DNA from: Blautia sp. SC05B48
GTDB taxonomy: Bacteria > Bacillota > Clostridia > Lachnospirales > Lachnospiraceae
DNA: 64,000 nucleotides
Direction: 5' to 3'
Assembly: GCF_005848555.1 (NCBI RefSeq)
Contig: NZ_CP040518.1
Coordinates: forward strand, 434,001 to 498,000
Below the pieces are notes generated by a model that searched no databases, was not told where the DNA came from, and was given only the letters and a program-made list of their open reading frames with translations. This document shows, piece after piece, positions 16,349-41,795 of this stretch. The translations under genes were made by a program, and so were the position numbers. The number at the start of each line of letters is the position of its first letter. Within the stretch, counting starts at the first letter, position 1.

Positions 16349-17194
16349 TTAATTCCCGGCACTTTCATATCTTCCCAGTCCACGTTTCAGGCACACTGCC
16401 GATAACCACAGCATCCCTATGCAAACAGGAAACAGTAACAGACATCCTGGCAGCATGTCCTTTTTTCCTAACAGAAAGTCCGCCGGATAATAGCTGATAT
16501 ATGCGTAAGGTATGATATATCCAAAGATTCCTTTCAGTAATCCCGGGTATATGATAAGTGGATATTTCGCCATCTCTCCTACAGAAAGAACCAGATAATT
16601 TAACGAATTTTTCGGTCCCTGCATCCAGAAGGACATACAGCTTGCCAGCCAGATCATGCAAAAACGGATCATAGATACTGTAAGCAGAGATACCACAAAA
16701 TACAGGATTTTTATGATCGTCCAGTTTATTTTACAGTTTTTTATTCCAACTGACAATATTCCCAGTGCTATGATCATTTTATTTAATCCGTCAAAATCAA
16801 TCCTGGAAGCTGCCATCTGCATTCCTGCCGGAAGCGGTCTTACGAGAAACCGGTCGATTTCTGATTTATTTACCATCTGTGCAATTTTCCAGGATCCCTG
16901 AAAGAAAAAGTTCACCCATCCTTCTGAAAATAACAGATATCCATCTAGCAATAAAATTTCCCATACAGACCAGCCGCCAACTGTGGGAATATTTGTATAG
17001 ATAATTCCAACAACAGCCAGATTTGATACCTGGGACAGCAATGTAAAAAATGTCATCATCAGAAAATCTGCCCGATAATACATCAGGGATTTTATATTCA
17101 TTTCCTGCATCTTCCGGTATATTTTGAAATATTTCCTGTATCTGCCCCTCTTTAACCTCCATATAATGCGATAACGGAAGAGGCTTTTTTCCAT
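16349..17194 (-). CDS. ABC-2 type permease (second subunit)
   Basis: Membrane part of an exporter, about 281 residues with six hydrophobic segments. It belongs with its neighbour to the ABC2_membrane_6 type ('YYRADFLMMTFFTLLSQVSN', 'EGWVNFFFQGSWKIAQMVNK', 'FLVRPLPAGMQM'). The start is uncertain: the family N-terminus 'RKYFKIYRK' needs a start at 17194, which overlaps the upstream gene by 43 bases. ATG codons at 17110 and 17101 lie later and have poor ribosome sites. The upstream permease and an ATPase complete the transporter. Confidence 0.8.
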   Translation of the reverse strand: MEKSLFRYRIIWRLKRGRYRKYFKIYRKMQEMNIKSLMYYRADFLMMTFFTLLSQVSNLAVVGIIYTNIPTVGGWSVWEILLLDGYLLFSEGWVNFFFQGSWKIAQMVNKSEIDRFLVRPLPAGMQMAASRIDFDGLNKMIIALGILSVGIKNCKINWTIIKILYFVVSLLTVSMIRFCMIWLASCMSFWMQGPKNSLNYLVLSVGEMAKYPLIIYPGLLKGIFGYIIPYAYISYYPADFLLGKKDMLPGCLLLFPVCIGMLWLSAVCLKRGLGRYESAGN

Positions 17195-17940
17195 AAGATG
17201 CTTCCAAATGCAAATAATATTACATTCCACACGCTCTGGAACAAAAGTGCTTCCCAGCATTTCTGCCAGCAAAATATTCCGTCAAATATGCAGCATGGAA
17301 TATATACAATCCCTGAAAAGGGCATAATCATAACAATTTTCTGCAAAAATCCAGGAAACAATGCCAGCGGAACCAAAGCTCCAGAACAGAAATTTGTCAA
17401 AACTTCTCTCCCTTTTACAACACCATATGCATTATCTGTATAAAAACAGAGCATGGAAAATATATGTTGGATGTTAAATTTGATTCCCATTCCCAAAAGT
17501 ATGGAAAAAAGCAGCAGAAGAACTCGCCACATCTCTATATTCTGCATTCCGTTACACATTACCAGGAAAATACCGCACCATAAAAATGTGATCAGAAATT
17601 CCATTCCTGCTGTTCCAACAGCTTTAAAAAAAGTCAAACTTCGGTAACTCAGCGGTTTCAACAAATCTGTGATTATATTTCCACTGATAATACTGTTGGC
17701 TGTCTGCATTTCAAATCCAAAAGAAAATGTACTATTGCACAAAAAAGAAACGATCACATATTTTTTCATAATTTTCCATGTATATCCATTAATCTCCGTA
17801 TGATATAAAAAAATACTTTTCCATACATAGTAAAAAACTACAACCTGAATAAAATTTGCAAGCAAACCGGTCAGGAAATTTTCTTTATAAGCAATTCCTT
17901 CCAAAAATCCCCCTTTTATCAGTGCCAGATATTTTCTCAT
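17152..17940 (-). CDS. ABC-2 type permease (first subunit)
   Basis: 262 residues, six hydrophobic segments. The N-terminus 'MRKYLALIKGGFLEGIAYKE' and the segment 'GNIITDLLKPLSYRSLTFFK' are typical of the ABC2_membrane_6 family, where two unlike permeases pair with one ATPase. It lies 33 bases after the ATPase gene. The family includes exporters of daunorubicin or viologen type; the substrate here is not visible. Confidence 0.85.
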   Translation of the reverse strand: MRKYLALIKGGFLEGIAYKENFLTGLLANFIQVVVFYYVWKSIFLYHTEINGYTWKIMKKYVIVSFLCNSTFSFGFEMQTANSIISGNIITDLLKPLSYRSLTFFKAVGTAGMEFLITFLWCGIFLVMCNGMQNIEMWRVLLLLFSILLGMGIKFNIQHIFSMLCFYTDNAYGVVKGREVLTNFCSGALVPLALFPGFLQKIVMIMPFSGIVYIPCCIFDGIFCWQKCWEALLFQSVWNVILFAFGSILWKKASSVIALYGG

Positions 17941-17973
17941 ATTTGCTCTCCTCAGAAAAACAAAATCAGACGG

Positions 17974-18786
17974 TTAATTCTTCGTATTTCCATTGAACAG
18001 TTCAATAACAATTTCTTCCAGTGTTTCTGCTTCCGGATAATCATCAAATATTTTTGTTATTTCATCATCAAATAAAATTTCTCCTTTTTCCAGAATGATA
18101 AGTCTCCGGCACAGCCATTCCATATCTTTCAGATCATGGCTTGTCAGCAAAATCGTGGTCTTTTTTTCTTTATTTATGTATTGTAAAAACTGATATACTT
18201 TCTGTTTGACTGCCACATCCAGCCCTATTGTTGGTTCATCCAGAAATAAAACCGGCGGATCATGTAAAAGAGCTGCTGCTATATCTGCCCTTACTCGCTG
18301 TCCCAGGGACAGCTTTCTTGCCGGCTGGTCCATAAATTCTTCCAGTTCCAGGATTTTCTTAAACAGATCCAGATTTTCTCCATAAACATTGTCCGGGATT
18401 TCATAAATACTATGCAGCAGTTCAAAAGAATCTTTTACCGAAATATCCCACCACAACTGTGTCTTCTGACCAAACACAACGCCTATCTTCCCGCCATTTC
18501 TGATCCGTTCCCTGAATGGATCATTTCCCATAACGGAAATCTTTCCGTCTGTCGGTTTCATGATCCCTGTAAGCATTTTAATGGTCGTTGATTTTCCTGC
18601 CCCGTTTGCACCAAGGAAAGCTACACATTCACCCTGCTGTATGGAAAAAGAAATTCCTTTTACAGCTTCCTTCTCTTTATATTGGGGATGGAATAAGTAT
18701 TTCACCATTCCGATAAAACCTTCCTGCCGCTGTGAAATCTTATATTTTTTGTACAGATTTTTAACCTCTATGCTATCCATATACAT
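17974..18786 (-). CDS. ABC exporter ATP-binding protein
   Basis: 270 residues. Walker A 'GANGAGKST', Q-loop in 'GVVFGQKTQLWWDISVKDSF', signature 'LSLGQRVRADIAAALLHDP', Walker B 'VLFLDEPTIGLD' and switch histidine in 'ILLTSHDLKDME'. The 'QKTQLWWD' region is typical of the ATPases that pair with ABC2_membrane_6 permeases. It heads the unit ATPase-permease-permease-AraC. Start at 18786, or 18780 as 'MDSIEV'. Confidence 0.92.
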   Translation of the reverse strand: MYMDSIEVKNLYKKYKISQRQEGFIGMVKYLFHPQYKEKEAVKGISFSIQQGECVAFLGANGAGKSTTIKMLTGIMKPTDGKISVMGNDPFRERIRNGGKIGVVFGQKTQLWWDISVKDSFELLHSIYEIPDNVYGENLDLFKKILELEEFMDQPARKLSLGQRVRADIAAALLHDPPVLFLDEPTIGLDVAVKQKVYQFLQYINKEKKTTILLTSHDLKDMEWLCRRLIILEKGEILFDDEITKIFDDYPEAETLEEIVIELFNGNTKN

Positions 18787-18911
18787 TCTTCTTTCTCTGT
18801 ATTTTGCTCTGTTGCGGTAAACTTGGTTACTGTCTATACAATAGCATCGTATATTTTATCCGTACATGTTCATTGTATAAATCTTTATGTTTATAATATA
18901 ATTTTCACTGC

Positions 18912-18956
18912 AAAAAAAGCTCCCCGGAAAACAGCTTTTTACTGATTTCGGGAAGC
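18912..18956 (-). terminator. Terminator after the amino acid/ADH operon
   Basis: On the minus strand, GCTTCCCG pairs with CGGGGAGC across a long loop and is followed by seven T. It lies about 80 bases past the alcohol dehydrogenase stop and closes the six-gene operon that starts at 24522. Confidence 0.75.
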
Positions 18957-19038
18957 CAATATCTTTTTTATTTACGCAAGTACTCTGATGACAGATTTTA
19001 TTTATACAGAGGTGTCACATACTTACCTGATACTATCT

Positions 19039-39369: not shown

Positions 39370-39404
39370 GATTTCCTCCGTGATCTTCAGGTGAATACCG
39401 CAAG

Positions 39405-39487
39405 CAGTTATTCCACTCAAGCGGATATTCGCAATCCGCATTCGCTACTTGCTCATAACAGAATAACTGCCAAACAGTTATTCTGTT
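39405..39487. repeat. Structured element with alternative hairpins
   Basis: CAGTTATTC occurs at 39405-39413 and 39475-39483, and its complement GAATAACTG at 39461-39469. The middle copy can pair with either side: as a 13-base stem AACAGAATAACTG (39457-39469) with 39475-39487, or as a 9-base stem enclosing 39414-39460. Inside, GCGGAT (39421-39426) pairs with ATCCGC (39434-39439). The part 39425-39458 is repeated at 53651-53684 with 29 of 34 bases the same. It overlaps the stop of the PIN-like gene. Confidence 0.65.
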
Positions 39488-40421
39488 AAAATATAATATC
39501 AATTCCGTCTGGCTGCATAAGCATATCTGCCAGTTCTTCGGCATCTGATGAAATCTCTTTTACACGAATATCTCTTTTTCTTATTCCCAGTACTACAAGA
39601 TTTCCCGATATTCCTGCGCTCATAATTTCTCTTATGTGATCTTTTTCTGTCAAAATTCCTTTTCTGAACAAAACCTGAACCAATTTCGGTGTACTGTATA
39701 TGCCGATTTCTTTCCCACGATACTGCATTCTTGTCCGTTTAAATAAATTATCTATTTTACCAGCTGCGCCTTTATCATCCGTAATAACATAAAACTTTTC
39801 ATCTGCTTCTCCGGGAATATTTGCCAAAATATGAAGACAAACAGCCAGTATTTCCTCACCAAGGTTATCGCCCGATTCTTTATTTTTTCGTACTGTTTCA
39901 AAAAAATGTCGATATATTTCTTTACTGTTGAGATTTTTCCCCTGCATAACTTCTTTATTAATCTCGGCATTATTTTCAATGGTATATGTTATGGTACTGA
40001 CCGGTCCTTTTAATAGTCTTACCGCCCAGCATAAATAATTATTGATCGCAGCATTCGTGTTAAAAACCATCTCCATGATGAAAAAAATATCCTCTTCATA
40101 CAGAACCACTACCGGTATTCCATATTCCCGTATGTATTTTATATATTCCATATATTCCTGATTTAGTATTCCACTATGAGAAGCCAGTTCCATCAAAATG
40201 CATCTCGTAATTACAAGAACGGTATCCTGAGTCTTCATATGCTTCAGTAAATACCCAGCTTCTTCTTTTTTCAGCTTGGAATGTCTCCGGAATGAACAAG
40301 CATCATAAAAACAACATTTCTTTCTGGAAAAAATTTCTGATATGATCTGATCTTTCCCGGTAATTATCCAAGGCATGATTTCTTGTATATTATAGGGGTT
40401 ATCCACATAGCCTTCTGCCAT
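39486..40421 (-). CDS. PIN-like domain protein, third gene of an HTH-ImmA/IrrE module
   Basis: 311 residues; no named family recognised. Acidic residues are spaced as in a PIN ribonuclease: Asp40 in 'KKCCFYDACSFRRHSKL', Glu78 in 'TRCILMELASHSG', Glu189/Glu190 in 'NLGEEILAVCLHIL' (the GExEAxALA-type helix) and Asp215/Asp216 in 'FYVITDDKGAAGK'. An insert of about 90 residues separates the second and third. It starts 3 bases after the ImmA/IrrE gene. RNA cleavage is inferred from the residue pattern alone. An alternative is a non-catalytic partner of the peptidase. Confidence 0.65.
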   Translation of the reverse strand: MAEGYVDNPYNIQEIMPWIITGKDQIISEIFSRKKCCFYDACSFRRHSKLKKEEAGYLLKHMKTQDTVLVITRCILMELASHSGILNQEYMEYIKYIREYGIPVVVLYEEDIFFIMEMVFNTNAAINNYLCWAVRLLKGPVSTITYTIENNAEINKEVMQGKNLNSKEIYRHFFETVRKNKESGDNLGEEILAVCLHILANIPGEADEKFYVITDDKGAAGKIDNLFKRTRMQYRGKEIGIYSTPKLVQVLFRKGILTEKDHIREIMSAGISGNLVVLGIRKRDIRVKEISSDAEELADMLMQPDGIDIIF

Positions 40422-40424
40422 TTG

Positions 40425-41228
40425 CTATTCCCCCCTTACTTCTCTGTAGAGCCTTTTCATATTCTGAAGAACTTTTTTTAATGTTCTTTCATTTAAATAA
40501 GCTCCTTCCATACATTCTTCACCATATCGCTTCACCATGTACTCCAACTTGTCGTAATCATCCCTATACGATGGATTTAAAATACTTTCATCCAGCCATA
40601 GTCTGGAAAAACCATTCTTTATATCATCTGCAGATATTTCCAGTAACATCTTTGATATATCTGATTCTTCCAGAAGTTCCAGTTCAAAGCATCGGACCAG
40701 TACAGCCATATAAGGAACCTGATAATAATTCATCAGGCGAAATACTGTATCTCTTTCATTATTTTCAGATTCCGCATGAAATTTCTGAAACATAAAACGA
40801 AATCCGCTTGTGGGCATCAAAAGCATTCCGGCAAACAAATTAGCTGCAACTTCCTCTTCATGTGTATAATAATCATCATTGGCAAACTCCACCTTTGTAC
40901 GAAAATCTGTTTTCTGATAAAGCACATGATACAGTTCATGGCACAAAGCAAAATTCACATTTACCTTTGGCAATGATGTATTAAGTACAATATATCCCAA
41001 CGCATCTCCTTTATAACAAAGAGCTCCTATTTCCTGATCACAGAAAGGCAGTTCTATAATAAGATATCCTTTTTTCTGAAAAGATGGTCTTACGATCTGC
41101 ATAATATTAAGAAGTTCTTTATCGTTACTGATTCCCGCAAAAGAACAGAAGCTTCTTATCTTCTCTTCCATCTCTTCTTTATGACAATCCCCATATTGGA
41201 TTATCTTTCTAAGACGTTTAATATCCAT
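40425..41228 (-). CDS. ImmA/IrrE family metallo-endopeptidase
   Basis: 267 residues. Zinc peptidase motif HELYH at 97-101 (in 'VNFALCHELYHVLYQ') with the third ligand Glu126 in 'HEEEVAANLFAGMLLMP'. The N-terminal helix and 'GALCYKGDALGYIVLNTSLP' match the family, and the tail of about 110 residues is helical. Relatives cleave the repressor protein next to them (ImmA cuts ImmR, IrrE cuts DdrO). Here the repressor gene at 41232 lies 3 bases upstream and the PIN-like gene 3 bases downstream, so cleaving the XRE protein to release the operon is a reasonable model. Confidence 0.85.
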   Translation of the reverse strand: MDIKRLRKIIQYGDCHKEEMEEKIRSFCSFAGISNDKELLNIMQIVRPSFQKKGYLIIELPFCDQEIGALCYKGDALGYIVLNTSLPKVNVNFALCHELYHVLYQKTDFRTKVEFANDDYYTHEEEVAANLFAGMLLMPTSGFRFMFQKFHAESENNERDTVFRLMNYYQVPYMAVLVRCFELELLEESDISKMLLEISADDIKNGFSRLWLDESILNPSYRDDYDKLEYMVKRYGEECMEGAYLNERTLKKVLQNMKRLYREVRGE

Positions 41229-41231
41229 GGA

Positions 41232-41597
41232 CTACTCCTTTGATATATTCATAAATCGATGTTTCGCACTCATTACTTCATCAATATTTTCCATCAGATT
41301 TTCAAGCTTTCCCGCAATTTCATTCTGACGTTCTGTAGGATTTCCTGCATAAAAAGCAATTTTTTCCTGTGTGTAATCACTGATCTGAGGGATAAAAAAA
41401 GAATCTTTCATAAAGAAATCCATTTTTTTCCCCAACGCAGATGCTATTTTTTCCATATCGGTGCTGTTTATATCCTGTACACCAGTCAGAATACGCGACA
41501 ATTTTTTCCCATCAATTCCCGTTTTCAAACTGATATATGTCTGCTTAATCTTCATCTGTGAGAGATAAACATTTACATTTTCTATATATTTTGTCAT
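41232..41597 (-). CDS. XRE family regulator of the ImmA/IrrE-PIN module
   Basis: 121 residues. The N-terminal helix-turn-helix (about 5-62) is 'VNVYLSQMKIKQTYISLKTG' and 'IDGKKLSRILTGVQDINSTD'. The C-terminal half is helical and may be the dimerisation and cleavage region. A clear promoter lies 57 bases upstream. The three genes differ from their neighbours in high AT content and use of ATA codons, which suggests transfer. Role: probably autorepressor, and antitoxin if the PIN protein is a toxin. Confidence 0.82.
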   Translation of the reverse strand: MTKYIENVNVYLSQMKIKQTYISLKTGIDGKKLSRILTGVQDINSTDMEKIASALGKKMDFFMKDSFFIPQISDYTQEKIAFYAGNPTERQNEIAGKLENLMENIDEVMSAKHRFMNISKE

Positions 41598-41653
41598 GTC
41601 ACATCTCCTCTTCCTTATCTTTCTGTTTATATATTATCTTGCTATGTACTATA

Positions 41654-41681
41654 ATTATACGCTCTTTCATTAATATATCAA
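41654..41681 (-). promoter_or_regulatory. Promoter of the XRE-ImmA/IrrE-PIN operon
   Basis: Minus strand -35 TTGATA (41676-41681), 16-base spacer, -10 TATAAT (41654-41659), 57 bases before the XRE start. Confidence 0.7.
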
Positions 41682-41795
41682 CAAGGAAATCTCATTTAAC
41701 AGGATTTTTATTTATATTTTTATTTTTCAAAAATTTTTTTTTAATTTCGAACCATATTTTCTCATTTTTTAATACTCTGATTTATTTTTCATCGC

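Follow-up and report, generated by a model that had tools for sequence, protein, structure and literature searches.

A compact XRE, ImmA/IrrE and PIN-like gene cassette in Blautia sp. SC05B48, a diverged relative of the Xre-protease-PIN design

Why should an XRE-type helix-turn-helix (HTH) gene and an ImmA/IrrE zinc peptidase gene be followed, on the same strand and almost without a gap, by a gene that bears no family name? The three genes lie in Blautia sp. SC05B48, within a stretch of 64,000 nucleotides (contig NZ_CP040518.1, positions 434,001 to 498,000) that is called the window here, and a preliminary description had taken them for a unit in which the peptidase releases a PIN-like nuclease. 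We consider it probable, short of firm confidence, that they form a self-contained, horizontally moving Xre-COG2856-PIN (PDC-M69-like) cassette acting as a protease-triggered PIN toxin-antitoxin or abortive-infection module. The features on which the argument draws are, in window coordinates:

41232 to 41597, minus strand: XRE-type HTH gene, 121 amino acids, with the HTH at about residues 14-62.
40425 to 41228, minus strand: ImmA/IrrE (Peptidase_M78) zinc peptidase gene, 267 amino acids, with H97, E98, H101 and E126.
39486 to 40421, minus strand: third gene, for a probable PIN-clan nuclease, 311 amino acids, with D40, E78, D185/E189 and D215/D216.
41654 to 41681, minus strand: promoter-like site TTGATA-16-TATAAT upstream of the XRE gene, 11/12 matches.
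41689 to 41705, minus strand: operator-like inverted repeat ATCTC-N7-GAGAT, 2/10 mismatches, just upstream of the -35 element.
39386 to 41794, no strand: inserted segment, absent from three same-genus genomes with the same flanking genes.

The gene order on the minus strand is XRE, ImmA/IrrE and third gene, and the 3-base gaps that had been described between them were confirmed by the three open reading frames (ORFs) listed above. The HTH protein is matched by Pfam HTH_3 (6.5e-5) and by the PADLOC model PDC-M69A (E = 2.2e-6, residues 6-109), and its C-terminal tail is conserved (FYAGEP...Q...A..L...MENIDEV.SAK.RF). The second protein is, as proposed, a zinc peptidase with an intact HELYH motif and Glu126: H97, E98 and H101 are present in all 54 aligned sequences and E126 in 53 of them, and Peptidase_M78 matches at 6.8e-17 (61.9 bits against a cut-off of 22). 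HExxH, the downstream glutamate and the M78 model together are those of the ImmA/IrrE (COG2856) family. The PADLOC model PDC-M69B matches it as well (E = 1.9e-22, residues 56-238), as do capP (1.4e-13) and RmrA (up to 3.7e-13). For the third protein, Pfam, PADLOC, NCBIfam and PHROGs gave no match, even with E-values up to 1 allowed.

A profile built from six third proteins located 58 loci in genome contigs (81 candidate stretches). The search used the third protein alone, and the other two genes were then sought with hidden Markov models (HMMs), which placed ImmA upstream in 57 of the 58 loci and XRE in 56, in the order and on the strand seen in the window. The adjacency is more than chance because 56 of the 58 third-protein loci carry both other genes in the same order and strand; chance adjacency was rejected on this count, and the expected association of the homologues with ImmA/IrrE and XRE genes is borne out. 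Judged by ORF length the whole trio is present in 53 of the 58, a gene being broken or cut in L022, L028, L042, L052 and L065 (locus handles begin with L); the contig of L028 begins within the ImmA gene, with XRE out of view, and the third gene of L052 is a 174-residue scrap. The loci include near-duplicates (L021/L023, with third proteins 99% identical; L034/L055, which look alike), and L037, L049, L061 and L064 repeat genomes from which the profile was built. By record title they come from Lachnospiraceae, Oscillospiraceae, Selenomonas, Succinivibrionaceae and Treponema, and many are metagenome bins.

The three proteins evolve together: across 50 trios, that of the window among them, their pairwise distances correlate with Mantel r of 0.89, 0.87 and 0.86, values that none of 999 permutations reached. 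Purifying selection acts on the third gene, whose ratios of non-synonymous to synonymous substitution rates (dN/dS) are 0.09-0.21 among the 12 pairs listed with dS below 1. When the peptidase profile was used instead, with 1e-20 as the highest E-value accepted, it matched 7 of 291 genomes from the class, the genome under study included; six of these carry a third gene of the window family or of a sister family, and the seventh (L106) has no downstream ORF of 100 amino acids within the stretch examined. The counts show that the trio is rare in sampled whole genomes: a third-protein match was found in 8 of 194 genomes of relatives (five full length) and in 6 of 392 genomes of the order (three full length), the genome under study being included in both. 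A scan of genome contigs with a single third protein gave 17 stretches, none of which was confirmed, and weak matches at L006, L008 and L070-L072 were set aside, since they are located in other, longer ORFs. In one same-genus genome the third gene has decayed to a C-terminal remnant of 50 residues (L007, 1507-1659).

The acids of a PIN active site follow a set order, namely an aspartate after strand 1, a glutamate in the helix after strand 2, an aspartate or glutamate, and an aspartate after a later strand. The third proteins were aligned for the window and 54 of the 58 loci (L028, L042, L052 and L065 were omitted as short), and D40, H47, E78, E109, K181, D185, E189 and D216 are invariant in these 55 sequences. 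The acidic positions singled out in the preliminary description were thus upheld for D40, E78, E189 and D216, but not fully for the two adjoining residues: position 215 is aspartate in 49 of 55 and glutamate in six, and E190 is kept in 49. In the AlphaFold2 model calculated from this alignment (mean predicted local distance difference test (pLDDT) score 94.3, predicted template modelling (pTM) score 0.91), a strand (35-39) ends ahead of D40, a second strand (67-72) runs into the helix that bears E78, a helix (187-199) bears E189, and a further strand (210-213) ends ahead of D215/D216. D40, E78, D185/E189 and D216 follow the PIN acid order in this prediction, and a small α/β extension (about residues 260-311) forms the C-terminus.

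The Pfam family PIN_12 was matched by 7 of the 55 family members (best 6.3e-5), while the window protein itself is unmatched by it and, with no Pfam match at all, by any curated PIN HMM above cut-off. In another family of the class there is a distant trio (L096/L104) whose third protein was found by the window-family profile at 1.4e-25, the search covering a small set of ORFs; this protein lies at the PIN_12 cut-off (31.7 bits against 32 in one search, 33.6 in another). An hhalign comparison with seven third genes of PDC-M69-type or sister trios, which is one pairwise profile comparison, gave E = 7.8e-6 and a probability of 84%, and a profile comparison with the sister family gave 5.3e-5, with an alignment extending through the C-terminal part. 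The weak PIN_12 matches, the profile link to PDC-M69C-type proteins and the residue order make a remote nuclease of the PIN clan the probable identity of the third protein. Two other matches were set aside, one by sequence to PDB entry 8qah (molecule sc-CC-8-58), in which no stretch passes alone, and one by profile to mS112 of 8a22 (E = 0.044); membership of DUF4411 was rejected, as its HMM gave no match.

One of the nearest relatives among known systems is PDC-M69, a candidate anti-phage system of PADLOC-DB 2.0.0, whose A and B models (113 and 272 positions) are of the same kind and size as the HTH protein and the peptidase, and match them. The third genes that match PDC-M69C start, like that of the window, with a D-T/A motif (by eye). 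The C model, however, has 188 positions, whereas the third protein of the window has 311 residues, with a longer helical middle and the C-terminal extension, and no PADLOC family, PDC-M69C included, matched it at E up to 1. On sequence, the window cassette is a diverged relative of PDC-M69 and not a member, as genes A and B match and gene C does not; it is filed as a relative because its third protein links to PDC-M69C-type genes by profile-profile comparison only. The label PDC-M69 was not found in print in a search of the open-access literature.

At an E-value limit of 1e-20 the PDC-M69B model has matches in 50 of 299 genomes from the phylum, the genome under study included. Among the 20 best of the 59 places listed, ten have a same-strand downstream ORF that starts D-T or D-A, a motif read by eye (eight D-T/A-D, plus D-A-N in L119 and D-T-S in L124; L108 and L111 are short); the remaining ten have other genes, no ORF of 100 amino acids, or a contig end. 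PDC-M69C was matched by seven of ten third proteins tested. The unmatched ones are those of L102, L104 and L105, and the first two of these were found by the window family's own profile. L105 belongs to a sister type: five IMG/VR contigs were found to carry the sister third protein, with HTH and ImmA genes upstream in all five, and two of them (L132, L133) have an identical trio sequence. By eye, the sister trio stands between HNH-like and terminase-small-subunit-like genes in L127 and L128, ahead of a terminase-small-subunit-like gene in L129, which is cut on the other side, and directly ahead of a tape-measure-like gene in L132 and L133; a sixth sister copy (L134) is in an unverified phage-labelled record. 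Also by eye, a PDC-M69-type HTH-peptidase pair is followed by a MazF/PemK-like gene in L110 (2470-2829) and by a nucleotidyltransferase-HEPN-like pair in L114 (311-1171). Effector swapping is possible in these two loci.

The design itself is not new. Three-component Xre-COG2856-PIN toxin-antitoxin systems were predicted by Makarova in 2009 (PMC2701414), with a protease proposed to cleave the Xre repressor beside RelE or PIN toxins. The window cassette shares with them an Xre repressor, a COG2856 zinc peptidase and a candidate PIN toxin in one operon; it differs in that its genes are all separate, whereas over half of the cases given there have an HTH-peptidase fusion, and in that its PIN-like protein is not recognised by Pfam, the toxins of that paper being from the PIN or RelE families. 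A table in the same paper lists COG2856 as a predicted toxin with Xre as antitoxin. By that token the peptidase would be the toxin and the third protein an antitoxin or regulator, which we regard as very improbable: the text of the paper leans towards a protease that regulates RelE/PIN toxins (PMC2701414), and pneumococcal COG2856 proteins were reported to be inert on overexpression (PMC4257102).

A more recent precedent for protease-gated release of a PIN toxin is VapBC52 of Mycobacterium tuberculosis (PMC13273310, 2026), in which a self-cleaving IrrE-type peptidase is the antitoxin of a PIN toxin, single-stranded DNA triggers cleavage of the toxin-holding domain, and overexpression of VapC52 is reported to protect against phage. 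VapB52 has a zinc-binding switch cysteine, C229, nine residues after H220 of HExxH (PMC13273310). An IrrE-type peptidase would control a PIN toxin in both systems, but in VapBC52 the peptidase and its substrate are one protein, whereas they are separate genes in the window, and the window nuclease is larger. Separate HTH repressor and IrrE-type peptidase proteins that control a defence effector are described for CapH/CapP (PMC13273310) of the cyclic oligonucleotide-based antiphage signalling system (CBASS), and the window peptidase-family profile matches the CapP structure 7t5t at 0.0049; CapH/CapP activate CBASS, however, whereas the candidate effector here is a single PIN-like protein. ImmA-type antitoxins with varied toxins, PIN-like partners included, are described in a 2023 network study in PNAS (PMC10440598), where RosmerTA (RmrA/RmrT) pairs such an antitoxin with varied toxins and is anti-phage. 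It differs from the window cassette in that the RmrA models have about 357-400 positions, separate parts of which match the HTH protein and the peptidase, as in a fusion, and in that the tested Kita phage toxin depolarises membranes (PMC10440598). Finally, in one of 150 family-level genomes (locus L089) a PIN-type DUF4411 protein directly follows a COG2856-like gene; the 396-residue regulator there looks fused (by eye), and the PIN protein has 169 residues. A paper on a RES-Xre system (PMC12457610) was set aside.

By these comparisons the window cassette is a diverged branch of the known Xre-protease-PIN design, and the third gene of this branch is unnamed in the four libraries searched above and in the open-access literature search. 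It gives the 2009 prediction a concrete, compact and testable form: three separate genes, one operator-like repeat, one cleanly delimited insertion and a sister version amid phage genes. Should the protease indeed release the nuclease, VapBC52 would be joined by another experimental case, one in which peptidase and substrate are different proteins. As none of the four libraries names the third gene, annotation of gut bacteria may fail to recognise cassettes of this branch as toxin-antitoxin or defence genes.

How might such a unit be controlled? The shared promoter that had been proposed has a candidate in TTGATA-16-TATAAT, read from 41681 to 41654 and the best of 11 promoter-like sites between 39300 and 41900, yet the number of these sites is no more than chance (mean of shuffles 11.7). 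Similar TTG and TATAAT elements are visible by eye in many upstream regions of related loci. Of 51 upstream regions, 45 contain the inverted repeat ATCTC-N7-GAGAT with two mismatches in ten or fewer; 200 shuffles gave 4.1 such regions on average and never more than 9, and 100 random-window draws averaged 5.9 with a maximum of 11. This excess is flattered, since the motif was selected partly on these sequences themselves, start codons were guessed by pattern, and related loci do not count as independent. The regions scored were 51 of 53 aligned rows, window included (L030 and L043 were too short), and in several loci the best match lies away from the promoter. The repeat is present also in loci titled Selenomonas, Succinivibrionaceae and Treponema. 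Its position upstream of the -35 element fits a repressor or an activator alike.

The HTH protein may regulate its own operon; the inverted repeat, an operator candidate known from conservation alone, is the simplest evidence of this. In the mechanism that we propose, the HTH protein would bind the repeat at its own promoter and restrain the operon, and probably the third protein too. When stress or a phage gives the signal, the ImmA/IrrE peptidase would cut the HTH protein, as suggested by ImmA/ImmR, CapP/CapH and VapB52; the operon would then be derepressed and the putative PIN-clan ribonuclease freed, which would cleave RNA and stop growth, giving a toxin-antitoxin or abortive-infection action. 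Protease release and the phage or stress trigger are what we infer by analogy, with VapBC52 (PMC13273310) as the published precedent.

Several observations weigh against this protease-triggered PIN toxin. A Foldseek search of the PDB with the third-protein model gave no match below E = 0.001; the top matches are tyrosyl-tRNA synthetases (E = 0.037), with VapC (5ecw) at rank 23 (E = 0.17, template modelling (TM) score 0.51 by target length), and a search of BFVD gave nothing below E = 0.001 either. H47, E109 and K181 show the same invariance as the acidic residues (55 of 55) and are not known as a standard PIN signature. A profile comparison with six collected PIN_12 proteins was negative (E = 0.22). 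No switch cysteine after HExxH is conserved in the 54 peptidases: cysteine is common only in alignment columns 28, 71, 96 and 180, reaches a maximum of 7 of 54 after the motif (column 104), and is outside the five commonest residues at column 110. The pneumococcal COG2856 result given above counts here as well, as do the phage collections, with no third-protein homologue in 50,697 phage records (tblastn) and none confirmed among 22 stretches that the third-protein profile picked out of viral contigs. In the same viral contigs 50 stretches picked out by the peptidase profile were likewise unconfirmed, and two PDC-M69-type third proteins used as queries found nothing.

The claim of a PIN-like third protein is partly supported, with the weak PIN_12 matches, the PDC-M69C-type profile link and the residue order in its favour and no significant match with Foldseek. 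In a toxin-free alternative, the HTH protein and peptidase would serve as a stress switch in the manner of ImmR/ImmA or DdrO/IrrE, with the third protein as a Rossmann-like sensor or adaptor instead of a nuclease. The best weak PDB matches are indeed to Rossmann-type enzymes with no significant PIN fold match, the invariant H47, E109 and K181 are unusual, and the named PIN families were weakly matched, with one comparison negative. We nevertheless find it distinctly unlikely, given the profile link to PDC-M69C-type third proteins and to the trio at the PIN_12 cut-off, the invariant D/E/D-E/D acids placed after the right strands, and the lack of any conserved target gene beside the cassette. 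As no switch cysteine is conserved, the signal may differ from that of VapB52/CapP. A bolder version of the nuclease reading, which we offer only tentatively, would make these cassettes a separate branch of protease-gated effectors, found across gut Clostridia, spirochaetes and gammaproteobacteria. Their HTH/peptidase pair, split and lacking the single-stranded DNA cysteine switch, would sense another signal and release a distant PIN-clan nuclease whose active site is altered (the extra invariant His, Lys and Glu) and which has a C-terminal domain of its own.

The base composition and surroundings of the cassette speak to its movement. The block was described as AT-rich, and its G+C content is in fact 34.2% in 39386-41794 against 44.4% for the whole window, a value as low being reached by only 0.49% of 616 overlapping windows of the same size. 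With an E-value limit of 0.001, a 2.5-kb query from the dehydrogenase side had matches in 45 of 60 same-genus genomes (the genome under study included), many of these matches being partial, and the corresponding region was compared in four genomes. Three of them (G004, G005 and G016) are collinear with the window up to 39383-39385 and again from 41795, and have 190, 181 and 113 bp where the window has 2409 bp (39386-41794); the fourth, G046, aligned on the dehydrogenase side only. The block is a discrete AT-rich insertion with a clean presence/absence site in the genus. It contains the trio alone, with no mobile gene, and its ends (100 and 140 bases compared) share no direct repeat of at least seven bases, with two 7-base inverted matches only; that it is part of a larger integrative element was rejected, with three genes only in the segment and no such repeat at its ends.

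Only one of 72,556 plasmid records holds a third-protein homologue, pTRESU01 of Treponema succinifaciens (L009), where the trio is annotated as HTH, ImmA/IrrE and hypothetical. The trio sits there in a contractile-injection-like cluster, between genes whose annotations read phage tail sheath, VWA, FHA, PAAR and M23 peptidase. Among 311 neighbour ORFs of the loci, the clusters common to at least two loci are small, the largest having ten ORFs, so that no fourth gene recurs widely beside the trio and the neighbours are not conserved. Of 189 neighbours of at least 100 amino acids, in the two nearest places on each side, 96 were scanned (92 nearest, four second-nearest). The commonest Pfam family is HTH_3 (3 of 96), and 40 PADLOC families were matched, with a single member for each of the 25 families listed and AbiLi (4.4e-88) among the matches. 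Some copies are near defence-like genes, yet there is no recurrent defence neighbour. It is because of the unconserved neighbours, the clean insertion site, the wide range of taxa and the plasmid copy that we regard the cassette as self-contained and horizontally moving.

The same facts invite the thought that the cassette is a selfish addiction module, with a toxin checked by the HTH protein and a peptidase that only tunes antitoxin turnover, persisting by harming the cells that lose it and serving no phage defence. The copy on the Treponema plasmid, the sister trio amid phage-like genes and the lack of a recurrent defence neighbour among the 96 scanned would all agree with this, and a sister trio carried as cargo among phage structural genes may suit a superinfection or an addiction role. 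We judge it unlikely, as the window segment has no mobile gene, most of the 58 loci have no repeated neighbour, and RosmerTA, VapBC52 and CapP/CapH are tied to phage defence in the published texts cited above. A protease-triggered toxin-antitoxin or abortive-infection module remains the account that we prefer.

Elsewhere in the window, positions 16349-18786 cover a second stretch of low G+C content (35-37% over 17001-19000), which by eye holds an ABC exporter ATPase gene and two permease genes.

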